Position numbers and translations under genes: made by a program
Shown: one piece after another, positions 21,910 through 40,916 of the stretch
Position numbering within the stretch: position 1 is the first letter of the stretch
How the letters are laid out: each line of letters starts with the position of its first letter
Notes under the pieces: model-generated
What the model saw: only the letters and a program-made list of their open reading frames with translations
Told to the model about the DNA's origin: nothing
Databases searched by the model: none
Assembly: GCA_027064005.1 (NCBI GenBank)
Contig: JAMOQM010000031.1
Span: 1-45,605, forward strand
Direction: 5' to 3'
DNA length: 45,605 bases
Origin: Candidatus Cloacimonadota bacterium
Lineage (GTDB): Bacteria > Cloacimonadota > Cloacimonadia > Cloacimonadales > JAMOQM01

Positions 21910-22662
21910 ATGTCATTTTCAATAGAAATTATTAATATTGCTTCATTTCTTGGGGCGGGACTAGGAGTCGGAATTGCTTCTGTAAGTGCAGGTATTGGAG
22001 AAGGATATACGGCCGGCCATGCTACTTCCGGAATTATGGAGCAACCCAAAGCAGAAGACCAATTATTACGAAATATGTTAGTATCACAAGCTGTTACGGA
22101 AACCGGTGCTATTTTTGCTTTGGTTGTGGCTTTACTTTTAATTTTTGGTGGTTTTGCAAATGGTGCAGGTGGATGGTATCGTACAGCAGCGTTATTAGCT
22201 GCCGGATTGGCTGTTGGACTTGGTAGTGTTGGACCGGGATTTGGTTCGGGATATACCGGTGGTCAGGCCATGAAAGCTGTTGCAAGAATGCCTAAACATT
22301 CAAATTCAATAACAGCAAGTATGTTGATTGGGCAAGCTTTGGCTCAAACAGATGCTATATTTGCTTTAGTTGTCTCTTTATTGTTATTATATTCCACACC
22401 GAATCAACCGGCAGGAGTTGAGGTCGGAAGAATAGTAATCAAATCAATTAGTTTTCTGGGAGCTGGATTAGCTATTGGTTTCGGAACGTTTGGACCCGGA
22501 ATTGCAATCGGATATGTTTCCGGAAGAGCAAATGAAATGATAGGTAGATTTCCTGATCAGCGTTCGATTTTAACAAGAACGATGTTTTTAGGTTCTGCCG
22601 TATCTGAATCTACAGCTATTTATTCATTAGTAATTGCATTTTTATTAATGTTTAGCGTATAA
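21910..22662 (+). CDS. Triple-hairpin fused ATP synthase c subunit
   Basis: The 250-residue protein has six membrane helices made of three tandem c-subunit hairpins (about residues 8-80, 90-162, 175-250). Hairpin 1 has Glu31 on the inner helix and the ion-binding Glu64 in AVTETGAIF, but its loop has MEQP, so the usual loop Arg is Glu44. Hairpin 2 has loop ARMP but reads ALAQTDAIF: the canonical Glu is Gln146 and the only acidic residue is Asp148, two positions later. Hairpin 3 keeps Glu233 in the Na+-type context AVSESTAIYSLV with loop GRFP. It sits between atpB and a normal 81-residue c gene. A GAGAGG site at 21898-21903 precedes the ATG. A heteromeric c-ring built of both proteins is the natural inference. 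Confidence 0.93.
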   Translation: MSFSIEIINIASFLGAGLGVGIASVSAGIGEGYTAGHATSGIMEQPKAEDQLLRNMLVSQAVTETGAIFALVVALLLIFGGFANGAGGWYRTAALLAAGLAVGLGSVGPGFGSGYTGGQAMKAVARMPKHSNSITASMLIGQALAQTDAIFALVVSLLLLYSTPNQPAGVEVGRIVIKSISFLGAGLAIGFGTFGPGIAIGYVSGRANEMIGRFPDQRSILTRTMFLGSAVSESTAIYSLVIAFLLMFSV

Positions 22663-34091: not shown

Positions 34092-36296
34092 ATGCAAAAG
34101 AAAGAAGGTGTTGGAAGTTTGAAAAGGAAAATGGCAGGAAGTATCATACTGCTATTTTCTTTATTAATTTTAATTTCTCTTTTTAATGCACAAGAAAAGA
34201 TATTTCATGATTATAACCGAATTGTAAATGCTCATTTAAGCTTTTTCCAAATCCTTAAATTAGATTTTCCTCAAGTGTCGAATCCGGTGGGTGTTTTCGG
34301 AGCAATTTTTTCATATTATCTCTTGATTTATTTGGGCAGATTTTTTTCAATAATATTTTTTCTTGGAATAATTTTATTGAGTATTTCTTGTTTGATTATG
34401 ACTTCCAATAAAAATAAGATATTGAAGATTTCCAGTTTTGTTTTTGCCGGATTATTCCTGAATGTTCTTTTGATAGAGTTCAGGATATCGGACAGTGGAA
34501 TATTTCCGATTTTTGTTGATAAAATTTTGACTCACATTTTTAATCCGATTGGGGCTAAATTAATATCTTTATTCCTTATTATTGCTCCCTTGCTGATAAG
34601 TTTTGAATTTGGGCATTTAATTAATTTTTTTAAAAATCATAAGAATGATAAAATTCCCAAAAAGAAAATTAAGAAAAACAAAAAGCTAAAAAAAATACCT
34701 GAATATACTGAAATTGAAGAAGATTTTGAAGATGATGTTATTTCCAAAAAAGAGCAAAAACCAATTAAAATAAGAAAACATGACACTTCTCTAAAAAAAT
34801 TACCACCAAAGGAAAAATTTGTTTTTAACAGTAATCAAACTTTCGATGTATATACTAAACCAGATGTGGAAGCATTTTTGTTAGTTCAAGAAAATCATAG
34901 TGAAGAAAATAGAAAAAATTTGGAAAAAAATATTAATCAAGTAGGAAAATTATTAATTACAAAATTAGCCGAATTTAATATTGAAGCAACTGTTGAGAAT
35001 GTGAATGTAGGACCAATTATTACGCAGTTTGAATTAGATCCGCCTCCGGGAATTAAAGTAAGCAAATTTTCCAATTTGTCTGATGATTTAGGTTTGGCTT
35101 TGAAAGCTAAAAGCGTTAGAATTGAAGCACCGATTCCGGGAAGAGGTCTGATTGGGGTGGAAGTTCCAAATAAATATTGGGATACGATTTTATTGCGTGA
35201 TGTTATGTTGTCAGAAGAAATGGCAAAACTGAAAGATTCACCTTTGGCAATTGCTTTAGGGAAAGATATTTCAGGGAAACCTGTTGCGGCTGATCTTTCG
35301 AAAATGCCCCATTTATTAATTGCCGGAGCAACGGGTGCCGGGAAAAGTGTTTGCATAAATACTTTGATTACCAGTATTTTATTGCGTTCAGATCCTGACG
35401 AAGTTCGAATGGTTTTGATTGATCCAAAAAGGATTGAACTCTCCGGATATAATGGAATTCCTCATCTGATTCAGGATGTAATTTCTGATCCGGAAGAATC
35501 ACTTATTTCGTTTAATTGGGCGGTAAAAGAAATGGAACGGCGTTATAGTTTGCTCCAAGAATATAAAGTTAGGGATATTGCTTCTTTTAATAAAAAAATT
35601 GCTAAATTACAGAAAACAGAAGAAGATTTTGAAGAAAAGAAATTGCCTTACATTGTGATTGTAGTTGATGAATTTGCCGATTTAATTATGACAGCCGGAA
35701 GAGATATTGAAACTCCGATTTCCAGATTGGCACAAATGGCAAGAGCAATTGGTATTCATTTGATTATTGCAACTCAAAGACCTTCTACGAAAGTAATTAC
35801 AGGTATAATCAAGGCTAATTTTCCAACCAGAATTGCGTTCAAAGTTTCTTCAAAAATAGATTCTCGTGTTATTCTCGATTCAAATGGGGCAGAGCAACTT
35901 TTAGGACGCGGAGATATGTTATTTTTAGGACCGGGAAAATCTTCCGTAGAAAGAATTCATGGTGCTTTTGTAACAGATGGCGAGATTGAGAGTATCGTGG
36001 AATATCTTAAATTGCAACCAAAACCGGAATTAGAAGTAAAAATTGAAATAAAAGAGGATTGTGATTTAGATAATTTTGATTATGATGACGAACTTTTCCC
36101 TGAGGCTGCCAGATTAATTGTTTCCGCACAAACTGCATCTGTTTCAATGTTGCAAAGACACTTCAAGATTGGATATGCGAGAGCCGGTCGATTAATTGAT
36201 AATTTGGAAGCGGCACACATTATCGGTCCCCACGTTGGCAGTAAATCACGTGATGTTTTAGTTTCAGAGGAGGAATTAAGCAATTATGGATTCTAA
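34092..36296 (+). CDS. ftsK: DNA translocase FtsK/SpoIIIE
   Basis: The 734-residue protein has four N-terminal membrane helices (about residues 15-180), a lysine-rich linker (about 190-260) and the alpha/beta motor, with Walker A AGATGAGKSVCINTL and Walker B IVVDEFADLIM. A C-terminal gamma winged helix follows (AARLIVSAQTASVSMLQRHFKIGYARAGRLIDNLE). It pumps chromosomal DNA at the septum and helps resolve dimers; the gamma domain would read polar KOPS-type motifs. The start ATG is 1 base after ychF stops; the ATG at 34131 is possible too. The linker is shorter than in E. coli FtsK. It overlaps lolA by 11 bases. Confidence 0.96.
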   Translation: MQKKEGVGSLKRKMAGSIILLFSLLILISLFNAQEKIFHDYNRIVNAHLSFFQILKLDFPQVSNPVGVFGAIFSYYLLIYLGRFFSIIFFLGIILLSISCLIMTSNKNKILKISSFVFAGLFLNVLLIEFRISDSGIFPIFVDKILTHIFNPIGAKLISLFLIIAPLLISFEFGHLINFFKNHKNDKIPKKKIKKNKKLKKIPEYTEIEEDFEDDVISKKEQKPIKIRKHDTSLKKLPPKEKFVFNSNQTFDVYTKPDVEAFLLVQENHSEENRKNLEKNINQVGKLLITKLAEFNIEATVENVNVGPIITQFELDPPPGIKVSKFSNLSDDLGLALKAKSVRIEAPIPGRGLIGVEVPNKYWDTILLRDVMLSEEMAKLKDSPLAIALGKDISGKPVAADLSKMPHLLIAGATGAGKSVCINTLITSILLRSDPDEVRMVLIDPKRIELSGYNGIPHLIQDVISDPEESLISFNWAVKEMERRYSLLQEYKVRDIASFNKKIAKLQKTEEDFEEKKLPYIVIVVDEFADLIMTAGRDIETPISRLAQMARAIGIHLIIATQRPSTKVITGIIKANFPTRIAFKVSSKIDSRVILDSNGAEQLLGRGDMLFLGPGKSSVERIHGAFVTDGEIESIVEYLKLQPKPELEVKIEIKEDCDLDNFDYDDELFPEAARLIVSAQTASVSMLQRHFKIGYARAGRLIDNLEAAHIIGPHVGSKSRDVLVSEEELSNYGF

Positions 36297-36897
36297 AAAA
36301 ACATTAATCTTAGCGTTTCTCTTGCTTGGTTCAGTTTTATTTGGTTTAAATAATTCGGAAATTAGAAATAAAATACTTGCTAAATATTCTGACTGCAAGA
36401 CTTTTCAGGCTGAATTTTCCCAATACAATTATTGGCCAAGTTATGATAAATCTAACAAGTCGGAGGGGAATATTTACTTTAATTCCCAAAAAATGATTTT
36501 AAAATACATATCACCGCATCAACAATATCTTTATCTGCATTCTGATTCATTACTTATTTACAATGTTGAATCAAATCAGGTTATGATATCAGAGCAAACC
36601 GGACTTTTTTCCGATTTTAAGATAAGTAACATTATAAAAAAATATTGGAACAAAAATGTTGCAAAAGTGGAATTTGATGGATCTGAATATAAAATTACTT
36701 TGAATTTGACAAATCAGGATGTTAAATCCATAACTCTAATTTTTACCCCGGAGTTTGTTCTAAAGAAAATGAAATATATAGACAAAAATAGCAATGAAAT
36801 TTCATTAAGCTTAAAAAAACTTGCCATAAATAAAAAATTACCAAAAAATGTGTTTGAACTTAAAATACCGAAGGATGCGAACATAATTGTTAGATAG
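36286..36897 (+). CDS. lolA: LolA-like outer-membrane lipoprotein carrier
   Basis: The 203-residue protein has a signal peptide (about residues 1-18) and the LolA half-barrel pattern: CKTFQAEFSQYNYWPSYDKSNKSEGNIYFNSQKMILKYISPHQQYLYLHSDSLLIYN and a C-terminal VFELKIPKDANII. It ferries lipoproteins across the periplasm. The genes around it encode several lipoproteins, so it has plenty of clients. It overlaps ftsK, a frequent neighbour of lolA in bacteria. Confidence 0.88.
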   Translation: MDSKKTLILAFLLLGSVLFGLNNSEIRNKILAKYSDCKTFQAEFSQYNYWPSYDKSNKSEGNIYFNSQKMILKYISPHQQYLYLHSDSLLIYNVESNQVMISEQTGLFSDFKISNIIKKYWNKNVAKVEFDGSEYKITLNLTNQDVKSITLIFTPEFVLKKMKYIDKNSNEISLSLKKLAINKKLPKNVFELKIPKDANIIVR

Positions 36898-36905
36898 GAG
36901 ATTTG

Positions 36906-37547
36906 ATGAAAATTAGAAATTTAATGATCATAATTTTAATGATATTGATGACTTTTGGTTGTACAAAGTTAAATTTGGCACGAAATTATTTTATCCTTGA
37001 TTACAATCCAATTATAGAAAATCCTAAATTATCTTTGGCAAAACCATTTCCTTATTCTGTTCAGGTAGTTGATAGCAGAATGCCCAGAACTTATGACAGA
37101 AGTCAGATTGTAATTCGTTATTCTGCTCATAAACTTTCTTATTCTTCTCAAAATATTTGGGCGGTTCGACTTTCATATTTAATACCTGATCTTATTAATA
37201 AACAAATTAAGTCCTATAATATTTTTGCTCAAACTCAAAGAGAATATTTGGAAGATCGCCCTGATTATGAAATAATAACTTACGTAAATCGAGTGGAAAT
37301 GTTTAAAAATGAATATTATACAGCCGCTCATTTAAGTATGGATTATTATTTAAGAAAGAGCGATAGCCACGATGATCTTATCAAATATTCGTTTGATATT
37401 GAAAAACAAATCTCTCAGGAAGGTATGGATATTTTTGCAAAAAAAATAAGCAATTTGTTAAAAGAACAAACTGATATTTTTTTAGTAAAAACAATCGATT
37501 ATTTTCAATCTTTAGAAAAGAAAAAAATTAAGGTTAAGAAGAAATGA
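36906..37547 (+). CDS. PqiC-like ABC-transport auxiliary lipoprotein
   Basis: The protein of 213 residues has a lipoprotein signal (Cys19, MTFGC) followed by NLARNYFILDY, PFPYSVQVVDSRMPRTYDRSQIVIRYSAHKLSYSSQNIWAVRLSYLIPDLI. This is the ABC_trans_aux/PqiC pattern of lipoproteins that work with MlaD- or PqiB-type bridges between the membranes. I use the ATG at 36906 (GGAG six bases upstream) rather than the TTG one codon earlier. It lies in a unit with mlaE and mlaF, supporting a role in lipid transport. No MlaD gene is in the window. The C-terminus ends in a lysine-rich tail. Confidence 0.82.
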   Translation: MKIRNLMIIILMILMTFGCTKLNLARNYFILDYNPIIENPKLSLAKPFPYSVQVVDSRMPRTYDRSQIVIRYSAHKLSYSSQNIWAVRLSYLIPDLINKQIKSYNIFAQTQREYLEDRPDYEIITYVNRVEMFKNEYYTAAHLSMDYYLRKSDSHDDLIKYSFDIEKQISQEGMDIFAKKISNLLKEQTDIFLVKTIDYFQSLEKKKIKVKKK

Positions 37548-39094
37548 AGAAATTACCCGGTATTTTCCTAATTTTGCTGTTTTCACTAAACCTCTTTTCA
37601 AAAGTTAATTATGATTCTTGGCTAAAACCTCCACCGTCAGAACAATTGGATTTAGAAGGAATTGACGACCAAAAAGGAGTTGGAAGGGTTTTTGTTCCGG
37701 CAATGACCGATCCTGAAAATGAACCTTTTTATTTCATTTATAAAAAAAATAAACTTATTAAAAATAGTAGAATGGGAACGAGTTCTTTTCTTTTACCCGG
37801 ACTCTATACTGTTCGTTATGGTTCCGGAGATGTAACTCAATTAATGTCTCAGACTATTCAAATATATAAAGAAAATGTAACTTATCCAAAAATAAATTGG
37901 AGTGGATTAACTATTAAGCTAATTGATGAAAATAGAAATAGTATTGATAATCGATATGAAATTTTTAGGATGAATAATGCCGAAAGTTACGGATTCGGTT
38001 ACGGGGCAAGAGAAGAAGTGGGTGAGCATTTGTCAACTTGGATTCTTCAACCGGGAACTTATAAAATTACTCTCAATGGACAATCTTTTAACACTTATAT
38101 TGATTTTACAACTGTGGAATTAGTTAAAGGAGAATTAGAGCAATTGACCATTGTGGTGGATTCGGAATCCGGACATTTAATTGGGGCAGGTATTCTTAAT
38201 CAGGAAGAAAATATTCTCTTGAATACACCATCAAAATTATCTACCGCTCTCCATTTAAATGCAAATGCCAACAGTGATAATTCTACTGACAAAAATCATT
38301 CCTCTACTCGAATTTCTCTAATCGGTCAGCTTGATAATAAATATATTTATGAAAAAGACCCTTTTCATATTATCTCAAAAGATTTATTTGATCTTGGTGT
38401 TTCTAAAGAGACTGATACTGATTTTAGAATTTCTACCGACAACATTTCTTTGAGAAATACCGGTTTATATTATTTTTCAAGATTTTTCGGTTCTTATATG
38501 AGAATTGATTTGCAATCACATTTTTTTAAGGAAAAAGTATATTCGCAGAATGGCGATAATTTTATGAAATTATCAGCATCAGGAGATACTCTTCAAACTT
38601 ACCAAAATATCAAATCGTTGGATGTAAAACCACCTTTTTACCCTATTTCTATAAAAGAAGGATTAGGTTTTAATTTTAGGATTTTAAATCATCCTCAAGC
38701 AAATTTGAATATTCGATCCGGTTTTGGAATGCGACAAGATGTTTACCGCAACGTTTATTCTTTTCTTCACACAATTCATGATGAGAATAGTCCGTATAAT
38801 AATTACAATGTTTATCAGCAAAATAAATCTAATTATCAGGAAGGTATTGAGATTTCTCTTTTGGGTAATTTCCAAATTCTCCGTGACGTTAGTTATAATA
38901 CAAATGCCGACATTCTTTTTCCGTTCGATAAAGAATCGTCCAAAAGTGTTGATTGGGAGCAGACTGTTAACTTGAAGCTTTTCAAATATTTGTCTGTCGA
39001 TTATCGGCTTAATATTTCTTACAATAAAGACGTGTCTGATTGGTTTGTTTTAAATCAAAACCTATTCTTGCGTGTAACCTATTTCCTCTATTAA
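37544..39094 (+). CDS. Exported protein, possible outer-membrane beta-barrel, in the Mla-like operon
   Basis: I do not recognise this 516-residue protein. It has a signal peptide (about residues 1-19). An N-terminal region of about 20-215 is beta-rich with aromatic residues and a pattern of two or more Ig- or carboxypeptidase-regulatory-like modules (LLPGLYTVRYGSGDV, ILQPGTYKITLNGQSF). From about residue 250 onwards there are alternating polar and hydrophobic strands ending in aromatic residues (NTGLYYFSRFFGSYMRID, LSVDYRLNISY). The last residues, LFLRVTYFLY, end in a terminal aromatic, as in outer-membrane barrels recognised by BamA. It overlaps the PqiC-like gene by 4 bases and precedes mlaE by 5 bases, so it may be the outer-membrane partner of this lipid transporter. 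Confidence 0.6.
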   Translation: MKKLPGIFLILLFSLNLFSKVNYDSWLKPPPSEQLDLEGIDDQKGVGRVFVPAMTDPENEPFYFIYKKNKLIKNSRMGTSSFLLPGLYTVRYGSGDVTQLMSQTIQIYKENVTYPKINWSGLTIKLIDENRNSIDNRYEIFRMNNAESYGFGYGAREEVGEHLSTWILQPGTYKITLNGQSFNTYIDFTTVELVKGELEQLTIVVDSESGHLIGAGILNQEENILLNTPSKLSTALHLNANANSDNSTDKNHSSTRISLIGQLDNKYIYEKDPFHIISKDLFDLGVSKETDTDFRISTDNISLRNTGLYYFSRFFGSYMRIDLQSHFFKEKVYSQNGDNFMKLSASGDTLQTYQNIKSLDVKPPFYPISIKEGLGFNFRILNHPQANLNIRSGFGMRQDVYRNVYSFLHTIHDENSPYNNYNVYQQNKSNYQEGIEISLLGNFQILRDVSYNTNADILFPFDKESSKSVDWEQTVNLKLFKYLSVDYRLNISYNKDVSDWFVLNQNLFLRVTYFLY

Positions 39095-39099
39095 ATCTT

Positions 39100-40185
39100 A
39101 TGCTAAAATATACTATAATTGATGAAACGCTATATTTGGAGGGATCTTTATCAAAAAAATTAATTGATTCTTCTTATTATAATTTTGAAAATTTAAACTG
39201 GGCGTTATTAAAAAAAATTAATATTTCTAAGATTGAACACATAGATTCTTTCGGGGTTGCCTTTCTTGATTTGTTAATTCAAAAAATAAATCCAAAAGAA
39301 AAATATAATTTATTGGAAGATGTTCCGGAAAAATTTCGCGATATTTTTCAAACTTTCACCTCATTAGATTTGGCAGATGTTCCACCGCCTCAGAGAAAAA
39401 CTTTTTTTGAAGAACTTGGCGAAAAATTTTATAATTTTAAAGATGAATTTATCCATTCGATGTTTTTAACCGCGGATATTTTTTATTGGTCGATCGTCGG
39501 TTTGTTTAAACCTAAAGGTCAAAGAAAGGGAGCTGTTATTCAACAGGGGATTTTGATTGGTGTTGAGGCGATTCCAATTTTATCTCTGCTTTCTTTGATA
39601 ATAGGGTTGATTTTAGCTTTACAGGCTGCCGCTCAATTAAGACAATTTGGAGCAAATATTTTTGTCGCAGATTTGATTTCAATTTCGATGGTTAGAGAAA
39701 TGGGACCAATGATGACCGCTATAATTGTTGCCGGAAGAAGTGGGTCGGCTTTTGCCTCTGAAATTGCGACTATGCAAGTTACGGAAGAAATTGATGCGTT
39801 GAAAATGATGTCAATTAATCCAATTAGATATATTGTTGCTCCAAAATTCCAAGCTATTACTTTCTGTTTACCGCTTTTGGTTATTTTGGCGATTTTTGTG
39901 GGTATTTTTGGCGGATTGCTAATTGCAATGTTCTATTTGGATTTAACTCCGACTTCATATATTAATGAAGCTATAAGCATATTATCCTTTCAAGATATTT
40001 TAGTTAGTTTGATTAAATCCATAACCTTTTCTTGGGCAATTGTTGTTATCGGAAGCTATTATGGTTTTCGAGTTAAAGGTGGGGCGGAAGGTGTTGGTAA
40101 AGCAACTACCTATTCTGTGGTTGCTTCTATTTTTTCAGTAATTGTCCTTGATGTAATTTTTAGTTTGATATTTTTGCCAAAATGA
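39100..40185 (+). CDS. MlaE-family lipid ABC transporter permease with STAS domain
   Basis: I place the start at ATG 39100, 5 bases after the preceding stop, because the product then begins directly with a STAS-like domain (LKYTIIDETLYLEGSL..., residues 1-90). The remaining sequence to residue 361 is the MlaE permease (DUF140) with about five to six membrane helices: GILIGVEAIPILSLLSLIIGLILALQAA, MVREMGPMMTAIIVAGRSGSAFASEIATMQVTEEIDAL and the later FRVKGGAEGVGKATT. N-terminal STAS fusions are common in this family. It pairs with the ATPase encoded next (ATGA-type overlap). Confidence 0.92.
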   Translation: MLKYTIIDETLYLEGSLSKKLIDSSYYNFENLNWALLKKINISKIEHIDSFGVAFLDLLIQKINPKEKYNLLEDVPEKFRDIFQTFTSLDLADVPPPQRKTFFEELGEKFYNFKDEFIHSMFLTADIFYWSIVGLFKPKGQRKGAVIQQGILIGVEAIPILSLLSLIIGLILALQAAAQLRQFGANIFVADLISISMVREMGPMMTAIIVAGRSGSAFASEIATMQVTEEIDALKMMSINPIRYIVAPKFQAITFCLPLLVILAIFVGIFGGLLIAMFYLDLTPTSYINEAISILSFQDILVSLIKSITFSWAIVVIGSYYGFRVKGGAEGVGKATTYSVVASIFSVIVLDVIFSLIFLPK

Positions 40186-40916
40186 AAAATCCGATTATAG
40201 AAGTTAAAAATTTGACAGCTCAATATGGTGAAAAAGTCATTCTTGATGATATTGACGCTGTTATTTATCCTAATGAAGTTACTATTATTCTTGGGGGAAG
40301 TGGTTGTGGAAAATCTACATTCTTAAAGAATATTTTAAGGCTAAATACTCCGACTTCAGGGAAGGTAAGTTTTTTTGGAAAAGAAATTGTTACTGAAGAA
40401 GAATTTGAGGAAGTTCTGCTTAGAATTGGAATGCTGTTTCAAAATGGAGCCTTGCTGAATTCTCTAAATATTTATGATAATTTAGCTATTCCTTTGGAAA
40501 CTCACACAAATTTACCGACAGAATTAATCAAAAAAATCATCAAAGTAAAATTAAATTTAGTCGGATTAAAAAATATTGAATATATGACTCCAGCCGAATT
40601 ATCCGGAGGAATGAAGAAAAGAGCAGCTTTGGCAAGATCTATTATTTTAGATCCGGAGATTTTATTTTGTGATGAACCAAGTGCAGGATTAGATCCCCTA
40701 ACAAGTGAAACTCTTGATAAATTGATTCTAAAGCTAAAAAAACAATTAAATATGACGATTGTAGTAGTTACGCATGAATTGGCAAGTATTCATCGAATAG
40801 CTGACAGACTGATTTTTTTGGATAATAAAAAAGTTATTTTTCAAGGTAGTCTATCTGAAGCAAAAGCATCCGATATTAAATATATTCAAGATTTTTTTAA
40901 GGTTGGAGAATTTTAA
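40182..40916 (+). CDS. MlaF-like ATPase of the lipid ABC transporter
   Basis: The 244-residue ATPase has Walker A GGSGCGKST, the Q-loop LFQNGALLNSLNIYDNLAIPL (typical of MlaF), signature LSGGMKKRAALARSI, Walker B ILFCDEPSAGLDP and an H-loop (TH). It drives the MlaE permease with which it overlaps by 4 bases. It lacks a long C-terminal extension. The gene is the last of the unit; no mlaD follows within the window. Confidence 0.94.
   Translation: MKNPIIEVKNLTAQYGEKVILDDIDAVIYPNEVTIILGGSGCGKSTFLKNILRLNTPTSGKVSFFGKEIVTEEEFEEVLLRIGMLFQNGALLNSLNIYDNLAIPLETHTNLPTELIKKIIKVKLNLVGLKNIEYMTPAELSGGMKKRAALARSIILDPEILFCDEPSAGLDPLTSETLDKLILKLKKQLNMTIVVVTHELASIHRIADRLIFLDNKKVIFQGSLSEAKASDIKYIQDFFKVGEF

Follow-up and report, generated by a model that had tools for sequence, protein, structure and literature searches.

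We propose that a compact operon of Candidatus Cloacimonadota encodes a trans-envelope MCE lipid transporter that ends, at the outer membrane, in a PqiC-type lipoprotein and a dedicated outer-membrane barrel, a reading that we consider likely (probability around 0.8). The operon lies in the window, that is, the whole stretch of 45,605 nucleotides analysed here, which corresponds to contig C31 in a Cloacimonadota genome of 2.4 Mb. The ABC core, the MCE partner, the PqiC-family lipoprotein and the usual fusion between lipoprotein and barrel are all read directly from the sequence. Lipid transport is inferred from the families to which the partner proteins belong, and substrate, direction and stoichiometry are matters of inference only.

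Results

Gene organization of the operon

Four genes, coding for a lipoprotein, a 516-aa exported protein, an MlaE permease with a STAS domain and an MlaF-type ATPase, are tightly packed in the window, with gaps or overlaps of no more than 8 bases. The features are as follows:

36286..36897, + strand: LolA-like periplasmic lipoprotein carrier (Pfam LolA, 1.7e-12)
36906..37547, + strand: PqiC-like outer-membrane lipoprotein, ABC_trans_aux (PF03886, 6.6e-13)
37544..39094, + strand: 516-aa exported protein with a Sec-type signal peptide, two beta-domains and a barrel-like domain
37667..38161, + strand: residues 42-206 of this protein, two tandem beta-domains with a predicted periplasmic location
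38186..39091, + strand: predicted beta-barrel domain of 12 strands (residues 215-516), from alternation, strand coupling and DUF481
39100..40185, + strand: MlaE permease with an N-terminal STAS (MlaB-like) domain, 361 aa from its ATG (PF02405, 5e-76)
40182..40916, + strand: MlaF-type ABC ATPase, 244 aa (PF00005, 8.8e-28)

The original prediction, made without database searches, had described a PqiC-like lipoprotein, a 516-residue exported protein with an aromatic end, MlaE (with STAS) and MlaF as a packed set. Re-reading the genes upheld this description with small coordinate corrections, and the 516-aa protein does carry a signal peptide and a C-terminal Tyr. The lipoprotein starts at the ATG at 36906, preceded by a good AGGAG site (the mechanical open reading frame begins at TTG 36903), and its gene overlaps that of the 516-aa protein by 4 bases. 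The ATG of STAS-MlaE at 39100 is found 5 bases past the preceding stop, the TTG at 39040 being merely a mechanical start, and the MlaF gene overlaps that of STAS-MlaE by 4 bases.

An MCE/Mla-type lipid ABC transporter is expected to contain an MlaE-family permease, an MlaF-type ATPase and an MCE domain. The permease is identified by PF02405 and by NCBIfam TIGR00056 (1.1e-73, 248 bits against a cut-off of 212), together with a match to mlaB, the STAS component (6.9e-06). The top NCBIfam model for the ATPase is PRK11831 MlaF, at 189.9 bits and under the equivalog cut-off of 441; the ATPase gene adjoins that of MlaE in nearly all related loci, as is required of such a transporter. The MCE domain is supplied by genes located elsewhere in the genome, as described below. 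The LolA-like gene is placed directly upstream of the lipoprotein gene, with an 8-base gap, and was not found beside the operon in any of 100 related loci; it belongs to the local gene string, outside the conserved core. Elsewhere in the window, at 21910-22662, a 250-aa ATP synthase c subunit looks as if its single chain contained three copies of a hairpin unit.

Conservation and linkage within Cloacimonadota

The 516-aa protein is present in 111 of the 125 genomes of the phylum and in 67 of the 71 high-quality ones. We fetched 100 loci and assigned every gene in them to a type by means of profiles made from the proteins of the window. The order MCE, lipoprotein fused to barrel, STAS-MlaE and MlaF was found in 73, exemplified by locus L008, where lipoprotein and barrel form a single 705-aa chain; 11 showed the identical order with lipoprotein and barrel genes split, and most of the remaining loci were truncated by contig ends. 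STAS-MlaE directly follows the barrel in 99/100 loci with an intact 3′ end (median gap, 1 base), and an MCE gene on the same strand precedes it in 94/98 loci with the 5′ end present. The four loci without MCE comprise two at contig starts, the window and L095.

Linkage of the barrel to MlaE-type transporter genes is thereby shown. The proposal that the 516-aa protein is a candidate outer-membrane component of a lipid transporter was to be refuted if its homologues were not linked to mlaE/mlaF in other genomes; this was tested and did not occur, in Cloacimonadota or in other phyla. The proposal is supported, with linkage shown and both the barrel and lipid transport inferred. All four high-quality genomes without the barrel come from a single genus (g7), in which a single MlaE is present in 5/5 barrel-less genomes and two in 7/7 genomes with the barrel (Fisher p 0.0013). 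This p value overstates independence, and a single loss is possible. Neither MlaA (PF04333) nor MlaC (PF05494) was found in any of the 125 genomes of the phylum, while E. coli and Caulobacter, used as controls, were positive for both.

On the MlaE tree, whose support is incomplete, the fused and split states require four changes. The window and locus L042 (genome G057) are split inside a mostly fused order, and locus L074 (genome G117) is fused inside a mostly split group. Fission in the lineage of the window is likely, although it is not shown given the incomplete support. In L042, the N-terminus of the split barrel itself has a lipobox-like LSSC, a motif from which it may be inferred that this barrel could have become lipidated after the split.

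The MCE partner is encoded elsewhere in the genome

A domain search identified no MCE domain inside the window operon, in agreement with the original prediction, which had left two options for MlaD: elsewhere or replaced. Searching the genome for MCE-domain proteins revealed two genes, on contigs C47 and C30. The C47 gene (L003:4152-5096) is the counterpart of the operon MCE gene of L008, the two proteins having in common the start MVxKxQKxRLG and the stretch GLQVGGxVKYHGIxVGRIxDIS, and none of the remaining operon genes is on contig C47. In the window genome the operon's MlaD-type gene is unlinked and not replaced, the absence of MlaD being only local, and the first of the two options is the one that held.

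Two other explanations of this absence were considered and rejected: a replacement of MlaD by the 516-aa protein, because nearly all relatives have both the MCE gene and the barrel in one operon, and an assembly break, because the window runs on upstream through lolA and ftsK. Operon-type MCE proteins have a single MCE domain, a long helical tail and a helical C-terminus, without a barrel of their own. Only one MCE stretch per gene was matched in the window genome, which does not fit the multi-MCE organization of PqiB.

Several neighbouring genes deserve mention. On C47, 128 bases upstream of the MCE gene, L003:2785-4023 encodes a 412-aa exported beta-rich protein without a Pfam match. The second MCE gene, on C30, is followed within 16 bases by the gene of a ~1000-aa protein with Peptidase_MA and beta-propeller (PD40) domains, whose C-terminus resembles an Omp85-type barrel by eye, without an Omp85 Pfam hit. 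This pair occurs in the 3/3 loci examined (L004:6156-10067, L157:1577-5517 and L158:1558-5473) and might constitute a second MCE system with its own barrel. MlaE is also encoded twice in the genome: the copy in the window includes the STAS domain, and the one on C132 (L007:6431-7168) is a STAS-less orphan that comes right after dnaB and has neither an MlaF nor an MCE gene beside it.

The lipoprotein belongs to the PqiC family

PF03886 (ABC_trans_aux) was matched in 28/28 sampled lipoprotein homologues, the lipobox Cys19 is invariant among them, and the family profile matches PqiC and related solved structures (8q2c, 13hr and 2iqi). An ABC_trans_aux domain behind a lipobox defines the PqiC family, and the lipoprotein is a member of it. 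None of the lipobox-positive proteins, including the window lipoprotein, has Asp at position +2. According to the Lol rule of E. coli, lack of +2 Asp favours sorting to the outer membrane, and therefore this destination is favoured for these lipoproteins.

Architecture of the 516-aa protein

The protein comprises a signal peptide (residues ~1-20), two tandem small beta-domains (~42-206) and a barrel-like domain of 12 strands (~215-516). The N-terminal beta-domain part that had been anticipated consists of two domains: a profile comparison aligns one half with the other (hhalign probability 89.8), and an L-x-PG-x-Y motif recurs in this region. A tandem duplication of the barrel halves was unsupported (hhalign probability 3). 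The protein had also been called unrecognised, which holds only in part, as it has some relatives: it matches DUF481 at 1.5e-06, with 28.9 bits against a Pfam cut-off of 21.1, and DUF3078 below the cut-off (20.6 bits against 25). Among 46 homologues, DUF481 was matched in 33 and DUF3078 in 29. In TCDB, DUF481 has an entry (1.B.75) as a family of putative outer-membrane pores with 12 strands (PMC4827864). NCBIfam gave only stray matches over the family, a PHROGs search gave no match, and no relative was found in viral contigs.

We consider it likely that residues 215-516 form a closed 12-strand outer-membrane barrel, an inference made from sequence alone. Family-averaged hydrophobicity revealed 13 alternation peaks (>=0.5) in this part, versus 4.2 +/- 1.8 and a maximum of 9 in 1000 column shuffles; the adjacent peaks at 295 and 303 were counted as one strand, which gives twelve. 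The N-terminal beta-domains have no comparable excess (4 peaks versus 2.5 expected). In a covariance-inverse analysis of 143 sequences (~105 effective), neighbouring strands outscore other pairs in antiparallel ladders (p 2e-4 to 2e-3 across four regularisation settings), whereas the parallel-ladder control shows no neighbour excess (p 0.07 to 0.26). S1 pairs best with S2 and S12, and S12 with S11 and S1, the pattern of a closed barrel. The pairs S6-S7, S7-S8 and S9-S10 score poorly in this ranking, and the test was partly unblinded, since raw ladders had been seen before two strand centres were fixed. The loops predicted to lie outside have a mean length of 18.5 residues, against 6 (range 3-10) for the inner turns. 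Invariant residues are present in the periplasmic part and also in the barrel part (in the latter G375, G393, G395, Y318, R320 and P367).

The fold remains only inferred because confident structure prediction failed. AlphaFold, run with two-sequence alignments (the window protein and that of L008), reached pLDDT 30 for the whole protein and 40 for the barrel alone, which is not evidence of fold. In the barrel-only model 12/12 strand centres fall within predicted strands, a result equalled by 1.3% of circular shifts and given little weight. Foldseek with this low-confidence model returned mostly porins, autotransporters and ushers (TM about 0.15-0.3), which were not counted, and the barrel profile matched no solved structure among PDB sequences. 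The barrel-like C-terminal part that had been anticipated is then supported by alternation, covariation with closure and DUF481, and unconfirmed by a confident structure. Barrels of ~300 aa with DUF3078/DUF481 that match the barrel part alone were seen at L155:3351-4235, L156:3408-4256 and L159:257-1150; those of L155 and L156 adjoin an MscS-like gene.

The family beyond the phylum

The A3 profile, built from 46 members of the 516-aa family, found strong full-length relatives in 5/165 sampled genomes outside Cloacimonadota. In the phyla of these relatives the gene is present in 13/13, 27/64 (strong matches), 2/2 and 1/2 genomes. Nearly all outside loci carry MCE, lipoprotein, barrel, STAS-MlaE and MlaF as separate genes; this unfused five-gene order occurs in at least three other phyla, and in the phylum with the barrel in 13/13 genomes the five genes are found in all 11 sufficiently intact loci. 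Two loci depart from this order. In L153:5007-11291 (genome G252) it is MlaE, MlaF, MCE, MCE and barrel, with an MlaE that lacks the STAS part and no PqiC-like gene detected. In the other, L149 (genome G229), the gene of a 596-aa protein of no known family (L149:6201-7991), upstream of barrel, MlaE and MlaF, occupies the usual position of the MCE and lipoprotein genes.

Discussion

A model of the putative transporter can be drawn from these parts. MlaE, with its built-in STAS domain, and MlaF would form an ATP-driven ABC core in the inner membrane, as is established for their homologues in E. coli. The single-MCE protein, which has a long helical tail, may assemble into a hexameric needle spanning the periplasm, as has been proposed for Brucella MpcD (PMC12436622). 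PqiC assembles into a ring of eight subunits at the periplasmic face of the outer membrane, where it accepts the tip of PqiB (PMC10897342), and the PqiC-like domain would likewise form a ring there and take the needle tip. The tandem beta-domains would act as a periplasmic collar, and the 12-strand barrel, in the outer membrane, would anchor the ring, fix the needle and probably offer a site for lipid entry or exit. Barrel and PqiC-type ring would stand in for MlaA/MlaC or for the MlaD-fused barrel of Veillonella. The topology of the fused chain is consistent with this arrangement, with lipid anchor, PqiC domain, beta-domains and barrel N-terminus all predicted on the periplasmic side.

Judging from the partner families, the likeliest activity is ATP-driven, Mla-like movement of phospholipids. 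By analogy with what has been proposed for Mla, retrograde phospholipid removal is only slightly favoured, and the direction is undetermined. A bolder reading, against which we lean slightly, is that each subunit of the PqiC-type ring carries its own 12-strand barrel, covalently attached, so that the needle would end in a ring of 6-8 barrels. To our knowledge, no ring of six or eight barrels has been described. If true, the ring would open a lipid path to the outer leaflet, and MCE systems would in general end at the outer membrane in such a multi-barrel portal, both in Cloacimonadota and in several other phyla without MlaA, MlaC or a barrel-bearing MlaD.

Could the barrel play a lesser part than the one proposed here? 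We cannot exclude that it is real and belongs to the complex as a mere anchor of the PqiC ring, lipids being exchanged with the inner leaflet through the ring alone. Such a mechanism has been proposed for Pqi and Mpc, and barrel-free PqiC rings suffice in E. coli Pqi (PMC10897342) and Brucella Mpc (PMC12436622). Moreover, a 12-strand barrel is narrow, and an equal doubt has been voiced for Veillonella MlaD (PMC10665443). Against this possibility, the invariant residues of the barrel exceed what a passive anchor would need beside the existing lipid anchor.

The two remaining alternatives concern the nature of the 516-aa protein itself. It is unlikely to be a soluble or surface-associated beta-rich member of the complex without a transmembrane barrel. 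The lack of a confident model and of a solved homologue would be compatible with such a protein, but alternation far above that of shuffles, closure between first and last strands, the relation to DUF481 and the asymmetry of loop lengths speak against it, and the alternation excess of the barrel part is not paralleled in the N-terminal beta-domains. We give still less credit to an ordinary porin or osmotic-stress barrel of the DUF481 type, present in a lipid-transport operon by chance. In favour of it, barrel-only relatives of ~300 aa exist in other contexts, such as those beside the MscS-like gene. Nevertheless, proteins with the complete domain set, both beta-domains included, are linked to MlaE at almost all loci across several phyla, and the barrel is fused to a PqiC-type lipoprotein and lost along with its MlaE. 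The transporter with a dedicated outer-membrane barrel remains our preferred reading.

How do MCE needles reach the outer membrane in lineages that lack MlaA/MlaC or an MlaD barrel? A survey published in 2023 left this question open: it reported MlaA and MlaC as mostly proteobacterial and the MlaD barrel as completely absent from FCB and PVC (PMC10665443). Cloacimonadota are usually assigned to the FCB group. The barrel family presented here is one concrete answer for Cloacimonadota and related phyla, filling a part that surveys had reported missing. Evidence on how the components are stacked comes from the natural fusion of the PqiC-type ring subunit to the barrel, which also provides a testable single-chain target for structural studies of lipid entry into, or exit from, the outer membrane. 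In the open-licence literature searched we found no paper naming both Cloacimonadota and MlaE, and searches on MCE transporters with a separate barrel and on PqiC operons in different phyla yielded none whose title and abstract describe the present arrangement; this literature is incomplete and a prior description is not excluded.

Each known system has some of these pieces in a different arrangement. The 516-aa family has weak Pfam matches to DUF481 (TCDB 1.B.75, PMC4827864) and DUF3078 and an inferred 12 strands, the number also listed for DUF481, but DUF481 proteins average 277 aa, and the family of the window differs by ~200 more N-terminal residues, by its fusion to a PqiC-like chain and by being strictly linked to an MCE transporter. 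MlaE, MlaF, STAS and MCE components are common to the E. coli MlaFEDB-MlaC-MlaA pathway, whose MlaA and MlaC are missing throughout Cloacimonadota. In E. coli PqiABC too, a PqiC-family lipoprotein is taken to terminate an MCE needle at the outer membrane (PMC10897342); in that case PqiB carries three MCE domains, and the system has PqiA instead of an ABC permease and no barrel subunit. Like the transporter proposed here, the MlaEFD system of Veillonella parvula (PMC10665443) is of the MCE type, spans the envelope, has an outer-membrane barrel and lacks MlaA/MlaC. However, its barrel has 10 strands and forms the C-terminus of MlaD, and lipoproteins are absent, whereas in Cloacimonadota the inferred 12-strand barrel is part of another chain, one linked to PqiC, and the C-terminus of the MCE protein is helical. 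The Mpc system of Brucella and other Hyphomicrobiales (PMC12436622) resembles the present one in its MlaE-type permease, MlaF-type ATPase, single-MCE needle and PqiC-like lipoprotein, and in the absence of MlaC and MlaA. Its four genes, mpcEFDA, include no barrel, in contrast to Cloacimonadota, which have a dedicated one that is usually fused to the PqiC-like chain.
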